DNA of 64,000 bases from Alphaproteobacteria bacterium (lineage in GTDB: Bacteria > Pseudomonadota > Alphaproteobacteria > UBA6615). The position numbers were made by a program, and so were the translations under genes. The notes under the pieces were generated by a model. The model was given only the letters and a program-made list of their open reading frames with translations, did no database searches and was not told the origin of the DNA. Each line of letters begins with the position of its first letter. Position 1 is the first letter of the stretch. This document shows, one piece after another, positions 1,140 to 51,436 of the stretch. The stretch covers positions 248,001-312,000 of the forward strand of contig JAJFIX010000006.1 of the NCBI GenBank assembly GCA_021774575.1. Direction: 5' to 3'.

Positions 1140-2522
1140 ATGTTCGATAATCTGACCGATAAGCTTGGCGGCATATTTGACCGGCTGACGGCGCGTGGCG
1201 CGCTCAGTGAGAGCGATATTGCCGAGGCTATGCGCGAAGTGCGCGTTGCTTTGCTCGAAGCCGATGTTGCCCTTTCGGTGGTCAAAGATTTTATTGACCG
1301 GGTGAGTGTTGCGGCTAAAGGGGAGGATGTCGTCAAAAGCATCACTCCTGGTCAGCTGGTGATCAAAATCGTGCATGACGAACTCGTTGCGGCCCTCGGC
1401 GCGACCTCGCAAGGTTTGTCGCTGAGCGCTCGGCCTCCGGTTGGAATCATGATGACCGGCCTGCAGGGGTCGGGTAAGACCACGTCGACGGCAAAACTCG
1501 GCAAGTATCTGACCGCGAAGGAAAAGAAAAAAGTCCTGATGGCATCGCTGGATGTCCGTCGTCCGGCGGCACAGGAGCAATTGCAGATTCTCGGCGATCA
1601 GGCGCTTATTCAAACGCTCAGTATTCAATTTGGTGAGCCGCCGGTGGCGATAGCCAAACGGGCGATGAAAGAAGCCAAGCTTGGCGGCTTTGACGTGGTT
1701 CTTCTCGATACGGCGGGCCGCCTGTCGATCGACCAGGAATTGATGGATGAGGCAGTGGCGATTCGCGATGCCGCCGGTCCGGCTGAAATATTACTGGTTG
1801 CCGATGCAATGACTGGTCAGGACGCGGTAAATACCGCCGAGGCCTTTCACGACCGACTTGGCTTGACCGGTATTATGCTGACCCGGGTTGACGGTGATGC
1901 CCGTGGCGGCGCGGCTTTGTCCATGCGGTCGGTGACCGGTTGCCCGATTAAAATGCTCGGCACCGGCGAGGGTCTTGACGAATTAGAGCTGTTCCATCCG
2001 GAGCGAATTGCCGGTCGTATCCTTGGCATGGGCGATGTCGTTTCGCTGGTTGAGAAAGCGCAAGAGACGGTCGACGAGGAAAAAGCCGAAAAACTCGCGG
2101 CGAAATTCCAGAAAGGCCAATTCGATCTCGACGATATGGCCGACCAGCTCAAACAGTTGAAAAAAATGGGTGGCTTTGGCGGGTTGATGAAAATGCTTCC
2201 CGGCGTTGGCAAAGTTAAAAAAGCGCTCGATAGCCAGAATATCGACGAAAGCATGCTGGGACGCCAAGAAGCAATGCTGTCATCGATGACGCCCGAGGAA
2301 CGGAAACGGCCGGCGCTGATTAAGGCGTCGCGCAAAAAACGGATTGCCGCCGGGTCGGGCACAACGGTCCAGGAAATCAACAAACTGCTCAAGCAATTCC
2401 AATCGATGCAGACAATGATGAAACGGATGAAAAAACATGCCGGAAAAGGCGGAATGCCGCCTGGTGGTATGCCACCAGGGGGGCTGCCACCGGGCTTTCC
2501 GCCCATGGGCGGTCTCCGCTGA
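1140..2522 (+). CDS. ffh: Signal recognition particle protein Ffh
   Basis: This GTPase binds 4.5S RNA and signal sequences and delivers ribosome-nascent chain complexes to FtsY at the membrane. The 460-residue product starts MFDNLTDKLGGIFDRL at ATG 1140, preceded by GAGAAGGA; a longer in-frame start at 1119 adds a non-family extension. Residues 1-90 are the N helical bundle. The G domain has GLQGSGKT (107-114), the DTAGRL Walker B/G3 region and TRVDGDARGG. The C-terminal M domain is rich in Met and ends in a Gly-Met-Pro tail (GGMPPGGMPPGG). It is first in the ffh-rpsP-rimM-trmD-rplS cluster, an order common in proteobacteria. All expected motifs are intact. Confidence 0.98.
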   Translation: MFDNLTDKLGGIFDRLTARGALSESDIAEAMREVRVALLEADVALSVVKDFIDRVSVAAKGEDVVKSITPGQLVIKIVHDELVAALGATSQGLSLSARPPVGIMMTGLQGSGKTTSTAKLGKYLTAKEKKKVLMASLDVRRPAAQEQLQILGDQALIQTLSIQFGEPPVAIAKRAMKEAKLGGFDVVLLDTAGRLSIDQELMDEAVAIRDAAGPAEILLVADAMTGQDAVNTAEAFHDRLGLTGIMLTRVDGDARGGAALSMRSVTGCPIKMLGTGEGLDELELFHPERIAGRILGMGDVVSLVEKAQETVDEEKAEKLAAKFQKGQFDLDDMADQLKQLKKMGGFGGLMKMLPGVGKVKKALDSQNIDESMLGRQEAMLSSMTPEERKRPALIKASRKKRIAAGSGTTVQEINKLLKQFQSMQTMMKRMKKHAGKGGMPPGGMPPGGLPPGFPPMGGLR

Positions 2523-2602
2523 AAACGACATGGGCGGCCTCCGCTGAGAACAACAAGGCGATCTTCGCCAATACACTAATCGCAAACAGGAGTAGATAAG
2601 TT

Positions 2603-3244
2603 ATGTCACTACGCATTCGCATGGCGCGCGGCGGGGCAAAAAAACGGCCCTATTATCGTATTGTCGTTGCCGATGCCCGGTCGCCCCGGGACGGTCGGTT
2701 TATCGAACGGATCGGTAGCTACAACCCGATGCTGGGCAAAGACGACCCCGATCGGGTGAAGTTGGATCTGGATCGGGCCAAACATTGGCTCAGTGTCGGC
2801 GCCCAGCCATCCGACCGGGTCGGGAAATTTCTGGCGTCGGCAGGCGTTTTGGATGCTCGCACTATTTCCGAGCAGACCAAGCAGCATTTGCCGCGCAAGA
2901 AAACTCTAGAACGCATGGAAGCGCAGAAAGAGGCGGCTGAGGCTGCGGCAGAGGCTGCCGCCGCTGCTGCTGAAACGGCCGCTGCCGATGCTGCTACCGC
3001 CGAGGCTGCCGCTGCTGAAACGGCCGCCGCTGAAGCTGCCGCCGCTGAGGCTGCTGCAGAAGCACCGGTAGAAGAGGCCGCACCTGAAGCTGCCGCTGAA
3101 GAAGCACCGGCCGAGGAGGCTGCACCTGAAGCTGCCGCTGAAGAAGCACCGGCAGAAGAGGCCGCACCTGAAGCTGCCGCTGAAGAAGCACCGGCCGAGG
3201 AGGCTGCGGACGCAGGTGACGAAAAAAAGTCAGAAGATAAATAG
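2603..3244 (+). CDS. rpsP: 30S ribosomal protein S16 with long Ala/Glu-rich tail
   Basis: Residues 1-80 are a standard S16 core ([20 protein letters not shown], then [14 protein letters not shown]), which binds 16S rRNA during 30S assembly. The product is 213 residues, whereas S16 is usually 80-120. The extra ~110 residues are almost only Ala, Glu and Pro, built from [14 protein letters not shown] units, and end in [14 protein letters not shown] lies about 10 nt before ATG 2603. The 3' end overlaps the rimM start by 29 bp. Ala/Glu-rich tails on S16 occur in other alphaproteobacteria; this one is long and repetitive. The core assignment is firm; the tail's role is unknown. Confidence 0.97.
3058..3210 (+). 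repeat. 42-bp tandem repeat inside rpsP
   Basis: The segment CACCTGAAGCTGCCGCTGAA recurs at 3081, 3123 and 3165, a 42-bp period (14 codons, unit [14 protein letters not shown]). Alternate units share synonymous variants (AGAAGAGGCC versus CGAGGAGGCT), which implies a doubling of an 84-bp block. The repeat is in frame and coding. Confidence 0.85.
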
Positions 3245-3776
3245 CGACCGCATCTGCCTGGGCGTCCTCGCGGGCGCCCATGGTGTTCGTGGATTGGTGC
3301 GGGTTCGCTCGTTCACGCAAATCCCGGCGGACCTGGTGACCTACGGGCCACTCGGTGACGCCGGGGGCGATCGTGTGTTTGAGTTGAGCCTGACCGGGCA
3401 AGGCCCGAAGGGCCAACTGCTCGGCCGGATAGAAGGGGTGAATTCCCGTGAGGACGCCGCCGCTTTGGGCGGTCAGGAATTATATGTGGCTCGGGATTTA
3501 CTGCCGGAAACGGAAAACGAGGAAACATTTTATCACGCCGATTTGATCGGCCTGAGCGTTGTCTCCGAAGATAGTATTTTTGGCCGGGTGGCAGCGGTTC
3601 ACGATTTTGGGGCCGGAATCATGTTGGAGGTCGTTGGGCCCGACGCAAAATCGACAATGTTGCCGTTTACCCGTGCGGTCATTCCAATCGTCGATATTGC
3701 CGCGGGTCAATTGGTGGCAAACTTGCCCGAAGGCTTGATGCCTGGCGGGTCTCCCGAAGAGGAGCAAGGCCCATGA
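3216..3776 (+). CDS. rimM: Ribosome maturation factor RimM
   Basis: RimM assists 30S head maturation by binding S19 and is classically encoded next to rpsP and trmD. The frame starts at GTG 3216, inside the end of rpsP, and gives 186 residues. [21 protein letters not shown] is the N-terminal RimM barrel signature; [10 protein letters not shown] and [14 protein letters not shown] belong to the PRC-barrel half (about residues 100-175). Its TGA overlaps the trmD ATG (ATGA at 3773-3776), which suggests translational coupling. No ATG is available near the start; GAGGAGG at 3197-3203 may be the ribosome-binding site. Confidence 0.93.
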
Positions 3777-4537
3777 CATGGCAGGCGACGGTTCTGACGC
3801 TGTTTCCGGAAATGTTTCCCGGGCCGCTGGGTATTAGTCTTGCTGGGCGCGCGCTTGAGCGTAAATTGTGGGCGTTGGAAGCAATTAATATAAGGGATTC
3901 AGCCCCCGGTAAGCATCGCAGCGTCGATGATGAGCCGTTCGGCGGCGGTCCGGGGATGGTTATGCGCCCCGATATTGTCGAAGCGGCGCTGCTGAGCGGG
4001 GCCGAGACGGTTGACCAGGGCGCGCCGATCCTTTATCTCAGCCCGCGCGGGGTGCCCTTCACCCAAACCCGTGTCCGTGACCTGGCGCAAGGTCCTGGTG
4101 TGGTTCTGCTTTGCGGACGTTACGAAGGGGTCGATGCGCGGGTGATCGAGGCCTCCGGCATTGAGGAGGTTTGTGTTGGTGATTTTGTGTTATCGGGCGG
4201 GGAAATTGCCGCGATAGCGTTGTTGGATGCGGTTGTGCGGGTGCTTCCCGGTGTAATTGGGGATGCACAGTCGTTGAACGAAGAGAGTTTTGAACAGGGT
4301 TTGCTGGAATATTCTCAGTATACCCGCCCCGAGATTTGGACCGCAAAAGATGGGACGGTCCGGAAGGTGCCCGAAGTTTTGACGTCCGGCCATCATGGCA
4401 ATATCGCCAAGTGGCGCCAGAGTATGGCCGAGCAGGAAACACGGAACAGACGGCCCGATATGTGGGAAAAGTATATCAAGAGCGGTTCCTCGGGTGGTAA
4501 AGAGGGCGGCGGCATGAAGGAAAAGAGCGATGAATAG
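3773..4537 (+). CDS. trmD: tRNA (guanine-37-N1)-methyltransferase TrmD
   Basis: TrmD uses SAM to methylate G37 of tRNAs that read CNN codons, preventing +1 frameshifts. The 254-residue product has the knotted SPOUT-fold signatures [48 protein letters not shown] and GDFVLSGGE. The C-terminal region ([16 protein letters not shown]) is also standard. It starts in an ATGA overlap with rimM and ends 8 bp inside the rplS start, so the cluster is tightly coupled. The last ~20 residues ([18 protein letters not shown]) are a low-complexity tail. Confidence 0.97.
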
Positions 4538-4979
4538 TTTGCAGGAATTCGAAAAAGCACAGGTTGCAAAACGTGTGGACGCGAGCCAAATCCCCGAATT
4601 TGGCCCCGGCGATACGGTCAAGGTCAACGTGAAGGTCGTCGAAGGCGACCGGGAGCGTGTGCAGGCCTATGAGGGCGTTTGTATCGCTCGCAAGAATGCC
4701 GGCATTAATTCGTCATTTACGGTTCGCAAGATTTCGAACAACGAGGGTGTGGAACGCGTCTTTCCGCTTTACAGCCCGCGTCTAGAATCGATTGATGTCA
4801 CGCGGCGTGGCAAAGTGCGGCGGGCAAAGCTCTATTATCTGCGGGAGTTGCGGGGCAAGTCGGCGCGCATCTCTGAGCGCACCACTGGTCGCGGGATGGC
4901 CGATGTTTCCCGCCGAGCCAAAGGCGCCCCCAAGATCAAGGCGGCACCGAAAGCCAGCGCTGAAGAGAAAAGCGAGTAA
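4530..4979 (+). CDS. rplS: 50S ribosomal protein L19
   Basis: L19 lies at the 30S-50S interface. The product (149 residues) matches the family: [20 protein letters not shown], then [33 protein letters not shown] and [21 protein letters not shown]. The Lys/Ala-rich C-terminal stretch beyond residue ~125 is an extension often seen in alphaproteobacteria. The ATG at 4530 overlaps the end of trmD. It is the last translation gene of the cluster; leuC follows after 11 bp with no visible terminator. Confidence 0.97.
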
Positions 4980-4990
4980 TCCACTGATCC

Positions 4991-6415
4991 ATGAGCACGC
5001 CCCCCATGAGTACACCGCGGACGCTATTTGATAAAATCTGGGACAGCCACGTCGTCCACACCCAGGATGACGGCACCTGTCTGATATTTATTGACCGCCA
5101 CCTCGTTCACGAGGTGACTAGTCCGCAGGCTTTTGAAGGGCTGCGCCTCGGTGATCGAAAATTACGGCGGCCTGATCTTACTTTGGCGGTGGCCGACCAT
5201 AATATACCGACGCAAAATATTGCCGAGGGCATCAAGGATCCGGAATCGAAAATCCAGGTCGAGACCCTGGAAAAAAACTGCGTTGATTTCGGCGTTGAAT
5301 ATTTCGACATGTCCGATCCGCGCCGCGGCATCGTCCATATTATCGGTCCCGAGCAGGGATTTTCCCAGCCCGGCCTGACAATGGTCTGCGGCGACAGCCA
5401 CACAGCGACGCATGGTGCCTTTGGGGCGCTCGCCTTCGGCATTGGCACGTCAGAAGTCGAACATGTGCTGGCAACTCAAACCTTGATCCAGCAACCGGCA
5501 AAAAATATGCGGATCTCGGTCAACGGCGCTTTGGGCGTTGGCGTGTCGGCAAAGGATGTCATTCTGGCGATTATCGCCAAAATCGGCACTGCCGGGGGCA
5601 CCGGGCACGTCATTGAATTTGCTGGCGATACGATCGACGGCCTCTCCATGGAAGGGCGCATGACCCTTTGCAACATGGCGATTGAAGGTGGCGCTAGGGC
5701 AGGACTGGTCGCCCCGGACGAGACCACCTACGATTATGTGCGCGGCCGCCCGATGGCGCCGAAGGGCGCGGCTTGGGAAATGGCTCTGGCCCACTGGAAA
5801 AGCCTGCCCTCTGATGCTGGGGCAAAATACGACACCGAGATTGAATTGGCGGCAGCCGATATTGTGCCTCAGGTCAGTTGGGGAACCAGTCCTCAGGACG
5901 TTGTACCGATCACCGGTGCGACACCCGACCCAGAGAATTTTGGCGATGCCGGACGCCGCGAAACGGTGACCCGGTCGCTTACCTATATGGACCTGAAGCC
6001 GGGCACACCGATGAACGAGATTGCCATCGATAAGGTCTTCATCGGGTCCTGCACCAATGGGCGGATTGAAGATTTGCGCGCCGCCGCCGCAATCGCCGAA
6101 GGGCGCCAGGTAGCGGCAAATGTCCACGCGATGGTCGTGCCGGGCTCTGGCCTGGTTAAGGATCAGGCGGAAGAAGAAGGGCTCGATAAAATATTTATCG
6201 AGGCCGGTTTTGACTGGCGTGAGCCTGGCTGCTCGATGTGTCTGGCGATGAACGACGACAAGCTAAAACCCGGCGAGCGTTGTGCCTCGACCTCCAATCG
6301 CAATTTCGAAGGCCGCCAGGGCCGTGATGGGCGGACCCATCTCGTTGGCCCGGCGATGGCCGCCGCCGCCGCTATTACCGGTCGGCTTACGGATGTGCGG
6401 GAGCTGAGCAGTTAA
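4991..6415 (+). CDS. leuC: 3-isopropylmalate dehydratase large subunit LeuC
   Basis: With LeuD it isomerises 2-isopropylmalate to 3-isopropylmalate in leucine synthesis. The product is 474 residues from ATG 4991; a second in-frame ATG at 5006 ([15 protein letters not shown]) matches usual LeuC starts better. Aconitase-family signatures are present: [20 protein letters not shown], and 4Fe-4S ligands C354 (FIGSCTNGR), C414 and C417 ([11 protein letters not shown]). The NRNFEGRQG substrate segment is intact. LeuD lies 850 bp downstream, after an RDD-family gene. Confidence 0.97.
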
Positions 6416-31728: not shown

Positions 31729-33384
<1,656 letters not shown>

Positions 33385-33601: not shown

Positions 33602-34093
33602 CTAGCGTGGATCCCCGCAAAGTCTTGCAATCCTGGCACACGCGACCTCAATGCGGCCGCGCTCGTTGTTCTCTCTCGCAACCTGAGCCAGATAATACCC
33701 TGAGAGCTCCTGTTGCGCCGTCTGCTCCCTACTATTTTGCTGTATGGCGGCAATGACATTAGCCCGGCACTTTTGCGCTTGGGTCCAAGATGTTCGATAC
33801 TGGAAATCGGGGTGAACTGGCCCGCCACAACTAGTCCAGATATATAGAGTAGGCACAGGGTCGCCAGGCTGATGATAAATAGGTCCGTTTGCAAAGCGAT
33901 CAACCCTTCCCGCGCTGCGCCCCGTATCGGGTACATACTCAACGTCCAGGTCGGTACCGTTGTTCCCCCTGCTCTGCGCATAGGCGTCGCTGCTATGCGT
34001 CGCCAGCAGGATGCCGGAAGTAGCGAGCACGAGCGCCAGTGTCATAAGGGCGGGGATGATGGCCAAGGTGATTTTTCTGAAAGATAAATACAT
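33602..34093 (-). CDS. Small secreted protein of unknown function, paralogue A
   Basis: The 163-residue product has a signal peptide with hydrophobic core LAIIPALMTLALVLATSGILLA, then THSSDAYAQ as the probable cleavage region. The mature part has four Cys (TSCGG, KCRAN, VACARI, RLCGD) and an Arg/Gln/Asn-rich helix-like middle. I recognise no family. It is related to the product of 34546-35088: the N-termini share the TSG/ATHSSDA-YAQ pattern and the C-termini a VAC-(x6/7)-C-DPR/DRR pattern. GGGAG precedes ATG 34093. Confidence 0.75.
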   Translation of the reverse strand: MYLSFRKITLAIIPALMTLALVLATSGILLATHSSDAYAQSRGNNGTDLDVEYVPDTGRSAGRVDRFANGPIYHQPGDPVPTLYIWTSCGGPVHPDFQYRTSWTQAQKCRANVIAAIQQNSREQTAQQELSGYYLAQVARENNERGRIEVACARIARLCGDPR

Positions 34094-34545
34094 TAAGAAC
34101 TCCCAATACTTACTGTGTTTAACGATATAACCGAAATCGACCGGCTTTGTTCGTCATGTCGTTTGACAAGAAAAGAGGTGGGTGAACGCCATTTCGTAAA
34201 CCCTCCAGACTTTCACTAAACTGTAACGATATTAGGCATATGGTCAAGCAATGTTTAATCATACGGAATAATTACATCTACTTACAGTAATTAGAAGTAA
34301 AATACGGTTTTTGATATATTTTTTACTATAAACCCAGTGTTTGGGTAGGCCCTGCCTGCTGGACATCGGATTGGCCACGATGTGGCCTCAAAATTTAGAG
34401 TAGTCGTGTGACCAAAATGCCAGTGTCGATGGCGCCGTGGTGGCCGGCAAGCTGCTCCAGGATTCGTATACGGCAACCGCATCCCGACCCAAGGCCAATA
34501 ACGTCGGGTGCCCTCGGGTCAGGACTGGATCGGCTCCATCTGGAT
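34094..34545. other. Intergenic gap between the two secreted-protein genes
   Basis: Apart from the groEL remnant, no gene is seen. The part 34200-34400 is AT-rich. The stretch just upstream of paralogue A (ATCGACCGG near 34137) resembles the stretch upstream of paralogue B (ATCGACCGG near 35168), which suggests the promoter/leader regions were duplicated too. Confidence 0.5.
34413..34460 (+). pseudogene. Remnant of groEL 3' region
   Basis: These 48 bp read [16 protein letters not shown]. groEL has [16 protein letters not shown] at about 33110-33158, and 35 consecutive bases are identical (34423-34457 versus 33119-33153). It lies between the two secreted-protein genes, on the groEL strand, with no further clear groEL match on either side. 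It best fits a scar of a tandem duplication that included the end of groEL. Confidence 0.8.
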
Positions 34546-35088
34546 CTATCGGCGGTCACAAGCGGCTCTACCGGTAACGCAGGCAATCTCGCTGGCGGCC
34601 CGTCCAGCCGCGTCATGTGCACTGGAGATCGAGCGTTCTCTATTAATACGCGCTTCGTCCTCTCGTGCGCGCCTCTGGCGCGAGCGCTCGCCGGCTCTGT
34701 ACATGTCTAGAGTTTCTTGGCACTGTGAAAGGGTCATCCGTACGGGCCCCATGCCGGGAACGCCCATGTTGCAGGCGCCTGTGCGATTGGGGCCGGTCAG
34801 GGTGCCTCCACGAGTTGGGGCGTAATGCTCGCCTTGGTAAATAAACCCCGGTAGACCATAAAAGTCATCCGTATAGCGATCATGAGCCCCTGAGGTGATC
34901 CCAGGGCCTCTTTGCTCCGGAACATCCCGACTATGATCACTATTGGTACCCCCCCCGTTGTCGCGGGTCTGGGCATTGGCGTCGCTACTATGTGTTACCA
35001 GCATGGTGCCGGATGCGGTGAGCATTAGTGCCAGTGCGATAAAGGATGGAGCAGGAATGGAGGCGACTTTTTTGAATGAACTGTGCAT
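34546..35088 (-). CDS. Small secreted protein of unknown function, paralogue B
   Basis: The 180-residue product starts at ATG 35088, with GGAG seven bases upstream; an upstream in-frame start at 35121 lacks such a site. The signal peptide core is FIALALMLTASGTMLVTHSS with cleavage near DANAQ. The mature protein is Gly/Arg/Asp-rich, with a charged helix (SRQRRAREDEARINRERS) and four Cys. It is related to paralogue A at both ends. No known domain was recognised. It is divergent from the metzincin-serine protease gene with a 280-bp gap. Confidence 0.75.
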   Translation of the reverse strand: MHSSFKKVASIPAPSFIALALMLTASGTMLVTHSSDANAQTRDNGGGTNSDHSRDVPEQRGPGITSGAHDRYTDDFYGLPGFIYQGEHYAPTRGGTLTGPNRTGACNMGVPGMGPVRMTLSQCQETLDMYRAGERSRQRRAREDEARINRERSISSAHDAAGRAASEIACVTGRAACDRR

Positions 35089-35369
35089 TACGAACTCCAA
35101 ATAAATACTGTCTAAATTCACTATCTAACAAATCTATAATTTAACTCTAATTCAATATCTAATAAGAATCGACCGGGTTTTCCTCGGTCGTCCCGATTGA
35201 TCGGAAAGACTGCAGGCAACACCTCTCGCAATATCTCTGTTGGCTAAGTTTGGTAGCTAAATTCGCTGCAGTAGCGCTACCAATCGCTCTCATCTAATAT
35301 GCCATCCTTGCGCAGCGCTCCGACGGATGGGGCGGCGGGCAGACTGAATTGGGTGGAGGCCGCAGCTAG

Positions 35370-37115
35370 ATGCCAACGACGTTCAAGCGGGGGGCCAGGT
35401 CGGTCCGCAACCAAATGATTGCGGTTGGGTTGGTGGCTGTTTTCGCGGGCGCTTGGGCGGGACCAGCCCTTGCCTGGGGGCATTTGCCGGAATTTGGGGT
35501 TGCTTCTCAAAGCCCAACCCTGGTGCTCGACGTTGTCGAGCGCGGGCGCATTCGCTTTTGCGTTGAAAATAAAGACGACCGATATGTAGACGGTGATCTG
35601 GAAATACTGGTCGAGGCGTCGCTTCGGGTCTGGCTGACCGAAATCGAAGATCTTGTCGGTCGGGATATTGCTGTGGAGCGCGAATGCGCGATTTCCATGG
35701 TCGACCTGATGGTCGTATTCGGCGATGTTGCCGGCGGCAGTAATGGCGAGGGGCCGGCGGATTTTGCCTACCGGGCGCCGCTCACCCGGGGCGCCAACCG
35801 GTTTTCCCTGGTCGCCTTCAATACGGTCGATACGAATGCTGCGGGCGGTAATGAGCTGGTCTTCATGAGCGCGTTGGATTTTTTAGGTGAGACGGCGTCG
35901 CTCGATCAGGCGGACAAGCTGGAATTTCTGCGGCTCATATCGACCGATGCGCCAAATCGGTTTCTCGGCCGTAGGTTTGCCACCATGGAGCGGGTCTTCG
36001 GCCGTGTTGGGGAAAAGGCGGGCTTTGAAGTCGATACCGGCCCGGCCGTTGCCGAGCGCCTCGGTATCACCGATAATCCGGCCGACCTCTTTCCAGTGAT
36101 GATCCATGAATTCGGTCATGCGTTTGGCCTATGCGACATGCGGCCAATTCCTTATGAAATTCGATGCAATCGGCAATGGCGGACGGAATTGACGGACAGT
36201 TCCGTGATGGCCTTTGGCGGATATGTTTTGCGCCCCGACGATATCGAAGGTATCAGGTCCATTTTCGAGCGTTTCGCCAAGCGCCCGTTTCTCGATGGAC
36301 GTATTTTCGGTGCCGATGATCGCCAGCCCGACGACCGATTTAACCGGGCACTGGTACGTATTGAACGCGAAGACCGGGGGCCGTTGATCGGGACCTTTGT
36401 TGGCGATTGCCGGACGGTTTTGGCTTCGGGTCACGGATTGTTTTCAGATGGTGGTGCCACTGTTTCGATGGAAGATATGGCGTTGTTCCCAGTTTGGCAG
36501 ACTGAAAATGCGGTTGAGCTTGAGGTCGACTGGGAGACCAGTGTGGCGACCAGTGTGGCGGATGGCTTGGAGCAGCCGATATTCCGCTCCGCCGCCGTTC
36601 CCGAGGCGGATTTTTTCGCCGTCCGTTTGACCGAAGATGCCGAGGGCTGTCAGCCGGTCATAATAGACCAGGCGAGTGCCACCCAGATCGTCAATGCCAA
36701 CGGGCCATTTGAAGTCGTCAGTTTGGGTGGGTTCGGTCCAGACGGCCGTCTGGCGGCAACTGTGAGCGTTCAAGCGGCGGGCTCTTGCGAAATCTTCAGC
36801 CGTCCGTTCGGCAATAAATTTTATCAAGACCCGGCCAATTTTCTGACCGATTGCGACTTGAGCCATGAAAACGAGGGTAGTCCGGTTATCACCGAGCAAA
36901 ACGGCGAATTTTACTTAATCGGAATTTCCGCCGGTGCAGACCGGCTGCCCCAATTTATGCGCAGTGACGAAAGTTATATCGTGCCGGTGGTTCCGGGCCA
37001 GGCCGAGTTCGCCAGTGGCGCTACTTATCGCGGCAGCGAGGGCAGTATCGCCGGGGCCAATATATTTATCCGTCTCGGGGGGGCTCTGCTGGCGGCGATA
37101 ACGTCGGGCGAATGA
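35370..37115 (+). CDS. Exported metzincin metalloprotease fused to a trypsin-like serine protease domain
   Basis: The 581-residue protein has a signal peptide (KRGARSVRNQM, hydrophobic core, cleavage near GPALA). Residues ~55-305 look like a metzincin: HEFGHAFGLCD (246-256) gives zinc ligands H246, H250 and D256 with E247; SSVMAFGGY (278-285) is a Met-turn, and LRPDDIEGIRSIFERF follows as in matrixins. Residues ~335-575 look like an S1-type serine protease: DCRTVLASGHGLF with H355, EADFFAVRLTE with D414, and CDLSHENEGSPVI with S504. Cys residues (C347, C427, C473, C495) could form disulfides. I know no described protein of this layout. Domain calls rest on motifs read by eye; activity is unproven. 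Confidence 0.75.
   Translation: MPTTFKRGARSVRNQMIAVGLVAVFAGAWAGPALAWGHLPEFGVASQSPTLVLDVVERGRIRFCVENKDDRYVDGDLEILVEASLRVWLTEIEDLVGRDIAVERECAISMVDLMVVFGDVAGGSNGEGPADFAYRAPLTRGANRFSLVAFNTVDTNAAGGNELVFMSALDFLGETASLDQADKLEFLRLISTDAPNRFLGRRFATMERVFGRVGEKAGFEVDTGPAVAERLGITDNPADLFPVMIHEFGHAFGLCDMRPIPYEIRCNRQWRTELTDSSVMAFGGYVLRPDDIEGIRSIFERFAKRPFLDGRIFGADDRQPDDRFNRALVRIEREDRGPLIGTFVGDCRTVLASGHGLFSDGGATVSMEDMALFPVWQTENAVELEVDWETSVATSVADGLEQPIFRSAAVPEADFFAVRLTEDAEGCQPVIIDQASATQIVNANGPFEVVSLGGFGPDGRLAATVSVQAAGSCEIFSRPFGNKFYQDPANFLTDCDLSHENEGSPVITEQNGEFYLIGISAGADRLPQFMRSDESYIVPVVPGQAEFASGATYRGSEGSIAGANIFIRLGGALLAAITSGE
36536..36559 (+). repeat. 12-bp tandem repeat (x2) in the double-protease gene
   Basis: GACCAGTGTGGC is repeated exactly, coding a TSVATSVA stretch in the linker region of the serine-protease-like domain. 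Confidence 0.8.
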
Positions 37116-50857: not shown

Positions 50858-51025
50858 GGCGCACCAATTCCCCTCATGAGTTCAAGGATGGAGGTTAGCA
50901 GGCTAGGCCTGTTAATATAGGTTTTTCTGCCTAGAAATTGTTAACAGTTCGCAACTTTTCGTCTATCCGTTTCCAGCCAGCCGCTTCCAGCCAGACAAAT
51001 TAGAGGACGAGGTGGTGTTATTAGT

Positions 51026-51343
51026 GGGGGGCTTCTGTTGCCCGGTGCCCCCCGAACCGCGCTTGTCTCTGCTGTTTAGGCAGCTACAGCGAAGGTTTCA
51101 ACATTGTCGTTGGCACCTATAATTTGGCCCGATAACGGCGGTACCATGCCGAGCGAAAGTTAGACCTTTACACGCGCGTCGATCCTATATCGCCCCCTAA
51201 TGTCCTCTTTTTTCTGCCCGACTCAAACATCGCTGATGTAAAAGTCCGGCAGCAAAAAGTTCTGGTGGAGGCGCCGGGTACTGCCCCCGGGTCCGCATCG
51301 TTTATTACGAAAAACGTTTATCGCCATAGTCGGTTGCCCGACG
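51026..51343 (-). ncRNA. ssrA: Permuted two-piece tmRNA (ssrA)
   Basis: tmRNA rescues stalled ribosomes. On the minus strand the acceptor piece ends in CGCCTCC-A-CCA at 51263, with T-stem CCGGG/CCCGG. The coding piece starts GGGGGCG at 51197; these 7-nt ends pair to form an acceptor stem with a G3-U70 pair, the alanine identity element. Downstream the tag frame (51114-51076) reads ANDNVETFAVAA-stop, preceded by TAGGT in place of the usual TAGTC resume context. The stop lies in a hairpin (GCTGT/ACAGC), and a GGGGGGC/GCCCCCC stem ends the region. Gene order acceptor-then-coding is the alphaproteobacterial permuted form. The outer 5' end (51343) is approximate. Confidence 0.93.
51076..51114 (-). 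other. tmRNA proteolysis-tag reading frame
   Basis: The resume codon GCC is at 51114-51112 and the TAA stop at 51078-51076. The encoded tag is ANDNVETFAVAA, so stalled proteins would receive (A)ANDNVETFAVAA. AVAA is the ClpX-recognised end; the ANDN part matches the start of other alphaproteobacterial tags bound by SspB. Confidence 0.93.
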
Positions 51344-51436
51344 TCGATAACATAGGGGTTTCCGAGCCTCATTTAAAGGCCTAGAAATTTCTCGAGATTT
51401 GGGCGGCGCTGTATATGAAATGAAGGGGTCACGAGA

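Follow-up and report, generated by a model that had tools for sequence, protein, structure and literature searches.

The gene under study lies in a window of 64,000 nucleotides (the whole stretch of DNA that was analysed) from a genome of 46 contigs and 3.5 Mb. Reading of the open reading frames (ORFs) of the window gives it as a single ORF on the forward strand, without interruption, for a protein of 581 amino acids (aa) in which a predicted signal peptide, a matrixin-like metzincin domain and an S1-like domain follow each other (Table 1). The signal peptide looks typical and ends in ALA ahead of the WG pair with which, according to alignment, nearly all members of the metzincin family begin their mature part, and the protein is probably exported, as the first-pass annotation had proposed. 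The motifs quoted in that annotation are indeed in the translation (HEFGHAFGLCD at 246-256, LRPDDIEGIRSIF at 287-299, and residues H355, D414 and S504); its Met-turn SSVMA is present as well, but at 277-281 rather than at 278-281. The junction between the two domains is bounded on one side by a metzincin paralogue that stops at the position of residue 303-304, and on the other by S1 homologues that start with GADDR at about residue 313. In composition, the two halves are alike and near the neighbouring genes.

Table 1. Features of the metzincin/S1 fusion gene and of two nearby genes (positions in the window)
Feature	Position	Strand	Remark
Small secreted protein gene	33602-34093	-	Paralogue of the gene at 34546-35121
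Small secreted protein gene	34546-35121	-	Paralogue of the gene at 33602-34093
Possible ribosome-binding site GGAGG	35355-35359	+	10 nt 5' of the ATG; read directly from the sequence
Whole gene	35370-37115	+	581 aa: predicted signal peptide, matrixin-like metzincin and S1-like putative pseudoprotease domain
Predicted Sec signal peptide, residues 1-35	35370-35474	+	Ends A-L-A; mature start WGHLP; sequence inspection
Matrixin-like metzincin domain, residues 36-305	35475-36284	+	Standalone sister gene stops at the same point
Zinc-binding motif HEFGHAFGLCD, residues 246-256	36105-36137	+	H, E, H, G and D kept in 11/11 homologues
Met-turn SVM, residues 278-280	36201-36209	+	Met in 11/11 homologues
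Short junction FLDG, residues 306-309	36285-36296	+	From the domain ends of the metzincin paralogue and S1 homologues
S1-like (Trypsin_2-type) domain, residues 310-581	36297-37112	+	Probably catalytically dead
His355, chymotrypsin His57 position	36432-36434	+	ASGH in place of TAAH; His in 31/31 homologues
Asp414, chymotrypsin Asp102 position	36609-36611	+	Asp in 31/31 homologues
Glu500-Asn501-Glu502 replacing Gly193-Asp194-Ser195	36867-36875	+	Codons GAA AAC GAG; homologue alignment

The leader region is common to the two small secreted proteins encoded nearby (41% over 82 aa). Their family, which is lineage-specific, occupies at least 7 places in the genome, on contigs 36, 42, and 43 with a cluster on contig 36, and was not found in 29 relatives. 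It had been suggested that the fusion protein acts on, or is linked to, these neighbours. Considering that the family is multi-copy and that none of its members was found near the standalone metzincin copy on contig 31, this suggestion is not upheld. Between the two genes, about 1 kb downstream of groEL, there is a 47-bp orphan fragment (34414-34460) that matches the 3' part of groEL (~33110-33156) at 94% identity and is possibly the scar of a lost second groEL copy. Elsewhere in the window, positions 51023-51381 (-) hold an ordinary alphaproteobacterial (permuted) tmRNA.

Both halves of the protein were matched by profiles built without it, which bears out the layout of a metzincin joined to an S1-like domain. 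A metzincin profile made of Bdellovibrionota-side sequences only gave 102 bits (E=1.8e-30), and an S1 profile excluding the window protein gave 47 bits (E=5.8e-14) over residues 311-526; with either profile, none of 500 shuffled copies scored above ~3 bits, and unrelated ORFs of the window reached at most 11 bits. As a single sequence, the protein has sub-threshold Pfam matches to Peptidase_M10 (E=0.0024-0.011; matrixin score 18.2 bits against a cut-off of 24) and Trypsin_2 (E=0.012-0.023). The metzincin family profile also matches human MMP-14 and MMP-12 (E=3.6e-5). The match to MMP-14 runs collinearly through two stretches, one in the N-terminal strand/helix part and one around HExxH. The first-pass annotation was right about the matrixin-like C-terminal motif, and the collinear match to matrixins takes in the DDxxGIxxLF C-terminal helix. 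The metzincin clan signature (HExxHxxGxxH/D and a Met-turn) is present in the window protein. Nine positions are invariant among the 11 aligned members of the family (H246, E247, H250, G253, D256, M280, D290, D291, and G294), as is the C64/C106 pair, and C255 and C266 are both missing from a single member (L035), as for a disulfide. As in 11/11 aligned members, the third zinc ligand of the window protein is Asp (Asp256) rather than His. No PRCGxPD-like cysteine-switch motif was seen on inspection of the aligned family sequences, in which ~25 residues precede the first strand. We predict H246, H250, and D256 to be zinc ligands, E247 to be the general base and M280 to form the Met-turn, and residues 36-305 would represent a divergent matrixin-like metzincin with an intact catalytic apparatus, which is apparently working.

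Structure prediction gave models of low confidence. The AlphaFold model of a standalone relative (L022) has a mean pLDDT of 48, and its top 50 re-aligned structural matches are all matrixins, the best being karilysin with a Z of 8.2 (values of ~8 are middling, so that the match serves as support only), an rmsd of 3.6 and 116 aligned residues; a Foldseek search, taken alone, returned no significant match. The model of the fusion protein has a mean pLDDT of 38, with the whole S1 half below 50 and no confident contact between the halves. With predictions this poor, the assignment of a metzincin fold and of an S1 fold rests mainly on sequence homology.

The genome carries a second copy of the metzincin as a standalone gene for 265 aa (contig 31, 224.4-225.2 kb), which is 34-36% identical to the metzincin of the window and ends where the metzincin domain of the window protein ends. 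In the phylogenetic tree the two copies are sisters (support 99/99). A comparable match was found neither in the other 23 species of the order nor in two samples of the class (385 and 367 genomes); other matches of the 11-row profile in the class samples were weak, none having an E better than 1e-5, and with few exceptions they were confined to the HExxH stretch. A search of 84,980 genomes with a degenerate DNA signature for HEFGHx[FL]GLCD brought up three true standalone members (L019, L022, and L027) amid M6-type and archaeal look-alikes, one from an Oligoflexia genome, one from a Bdellovibrionales genome and one from a genome labelled only 'bacterium'. Profile A3 had matches in 36 of the 340 genomes of the phylum to which the Oligoflexia-genome member belongs, and its search added further full-length members of ~270-330 aa. 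These data define an Asp-type matrixin-like protease family that is spread through Bdellovibrionota and has been largely missed by Pfam. A two-row alignment search of genome contigs gave no confirmed relatives, a tblastn search of plasmids no match for either metzincin copy, and a search of viral contigs no match for full-length queries. One short matrixin-like phage ORF (L008, 29%) is not a member of the family, and two matches in relatives with E ~1e-3, one HlyD-like (L004) and one antisense to murB/ddl-like ORFs (L010), were inspected and judged to be due to chance. Transfer from Bdellovibrionota followed by duplication fits these data, the direction being a proposal.

Several further observations concern the standalone members. 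A wider branch in Bdellovibrionota (L040-L047) consists of proteins of 400-470 aa, several of them with lipoprotein-like leaders, which have YWGHL-like starts, HEFGHVWGLCD-type motifs and ~120 extra C-terminal residues without an S1 profile match. No consistent genomic neighbour was found for the standalone Bdellovibrionota metzincins; in two genomes the next gene after the metzincin (L129, 8721-10328; L133, 6608-8197) encodes a product of ~530 aa that is apparently secreted and has no Pfam match. The standalone copy in the genome studied here (6401-7198 on L125) begins 4 nt after an ORF for a 1507-aa protein (1873-6396) with a Cu-oxidase_3 match (E=6e-16), which suggests that this multicopper-oxidase-like ORF and the metzincin copy form an operon; a part of the metzincin in processing the oxidase is conceivable.

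When residues 306-581 alone were compared with the class, four S1 proteins were retrieved, all of them aligned across the serine loop. A profile of these four found homologues in 73 of 289 genomes, and 31 were extracted. None of them has an HExxHxxG motif, and the majority are standalone proteins 250-370 aa long. The S1 profile that gave 47 bits for the window protein was built from these 31, and by its match residues 310-581 are a homologue of the secreted trypsin-like proteases that occur as standalone proteins in Alphaproteobacteria. Solved serine proteases match the enlarged S1 subfamily profile, 7uxg_A at 2e-38 and 1p3c, a glutamyl endopeptidase, at 8e-19, and in these alignments the GDSGSP/GNSGS serine is in register. 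The window protein has kept the GADDR start, His355, Asp414, G503, P505, and C473/C495, a cysteine pair that occurs in 31/31 homologues. As no second match to the S1 subfamily was found in the genome at E<=1e-3, the donor gene was not seen. Only the window gene, among all fetched loci, matches both the metzincin and the S1 profiles, and no orthologue with both halves was found in the order and class samples.

The catalytic residues of the S1 half had been given as H355, D414, and S504. The His and the Asp stand, since both are found in 31/31 homologues, but the serine does not. In several alignments made in different ways, TDCDLSHENEGSPVI of the window aligns with HDCDATxGDSGSPIL of the homologues, and NEGSPV with (G)DSGSPV, so that Glu502 takes the position of the nucleophile and S504 corresponds to chymotrypsin residue 197, not 195. 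The column of S504 is variable among the 31 homologues (S/G/A = 18/8/5), whereas the Ser195 column, E502 in the window protein, is Ser in all 31. The Gly193 oxyanion column is E500 in the window protein vs Gly in 29 of the 31, and TAAHC of the homologues is replaced by ASGHG. The codons of the serine loop read GAA AAC GAG GGT AGT, implying that loss of the nucleophile is not a one-base artefact. Because of Glu502, Glu500, and the lost TAAHC, the S1 half should be catalytically dead as a serine protease. The corrected register of the nucleophile shifts the prediction from two enzymes to one.

Our preferred reading, to which we give a probability of about 0.6, is that the gene encodes one exported zinc endopeptidase whose attached S1 domain is catalytically dead and would serve in binding of a substrate or partner. 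Only the metzincin half would cleave peptide bonds, and the S1-like half may, as a non-catalytic exosite or adaptor, bind substrate or partner proteins and bring them into position, possibly by way of the old S1 substrate groove. As to its history, the lineage may have gained a standalone metzincin of the Bdellovibrionota type and duplicated it, after which one copy might have been fused in frame to the gene of a secreted S1 protease, with replacement of the signal peptide of the latter, and the S1 half would have lost catalysis after the fusion. Whether the domain is a captured S1 protease that, having lost its nucleophile, now serves as a dedicated substrate-binding or regulatory cis-domain of a bacterial matrixin-like protease is a more tentative proposal, and we would place it somewhat short of even odds.

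It is also conceivable, although we consider it unlikely, that the dead S1 domain serves in latency or inhibition, covering the cleft of the metzincin until the domain is displaced or cleaved off. The aligned family sequences show, on inspection, no recognisable MMP-type cysteine-switch propeptide, which means that regulation might come from elsewhere, and fusion at the C-terminus puts a groove-bearing domain near the catalytic domain. However, neither the Bdellovibrionota relatives nor the standalone sister have such a domain, and the low-confidence model of the fusion shows no confident contact between the halves. Equally, the S1 half might be an evolutionary remnant, i.e., the serine protease part of an accidental fusion that has been drifting without function. 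The alteration of several active-site positions together and the lack of an orthologue of the same fusion in the order and class samples would agree with such decay, but ~270 codons of the S1 half have stayed open with a coding-like composition, and the GADDR start, C473/C495, G503, P505, and the His/Asp pair persist. We consider decay unlikely as well, although it is, like masking, a live rival. The reading of the first-pass annotation, in which the two halves are each proteolytically active, with either one processing its partner or a substrate common to both, could appeal to the retained His355 and Asp414, to the intact catalytic residues of the metzincin and to the intact-triad trypsin-like domain beside the metalloprotease in the M26 IgA1 protease of Gemella (PMC9637739), but we reject it as highly improbable because the register places Glu502 in the nucleophile column and Glu500 in the oxyanion column, S504 lies two residues downstream, where active-looking relatives have S, G, or A, and mutual activation is unlikely once the S1 nucleophile, the oxyanion Gly and TAAHC are lost.

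If the more tentative proposal of a captured and repurposed S1 domain is true, the protein would contain an S1 pseudoprotease of bacteria that acts on a metzincin in cis. To our knowledge, few descriptions exist of S1 pseudoproteases in bacteria or of non-catalytic domains that partner metzincins in cis, and we found no report of either in the open-access literature. The ancestral parts, a standalone metzincin and a standalone S1 protease, can be compared with the fused and disarmed form.

The first-pass annotation knew of no described family with this layout. Our search of the open-access literature likewise brought up no paper on a matrixin-S1 fusion, although this does not prove that none exists. 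In a wider sense the claim needs qualification, considering that a trypsin-like domain is also present in the M26 metallo-IgA1 proteases from Gemella and some streptococci; in Gemella haemolysans this domain has an intact triad and did not contribute to IgA1 cleavage (PMC9637739). The Gemella enzyme resembles the window protein in that a single secreted chain combines a trypsin-like domain with a zinc protease, but M26 is not matrixin-like, its trypsin-like domain is N-terminal with an intact triad, and the protein is much larger (PMC9637739); Pfam and NCBIfam gave no M26 match in the window protein. With matrixins (M10A, including MMPs and bacterial karilysin) the family shares the collinear order of N-terminal strand/helix, HExxHxxG helix, Met-turn and DDxxGIxxLF C-terminal helix, whereas it differs in having Asp in place of the third His ligand in all 11 members, a long variable insertion ahead of the active-site helix and two family-specific cysteine pairs. 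The Bdellovibrionota proteins of the WG...HEFGHxFGLCD type and the paralogue in the same genome belong to the same family over residues ~20-305, with the same catalytic residues and cysteines, but are 265-330 aa long and have no S1 domain. Finally, secreted S1 (Trypsin_2/V8-like) proteases of Alphaproteobacteria, together with 7uxg_A and 1p3c, are homologous to the window protein over residues 311-526, and the alphaproteobacterial ones share its GADDR start, His, Asp, and C473/C495; in contrast to them, the S1 half of the window protein lacks Ser195, Gly193, and TAAHC, and is joined to a metzincin.
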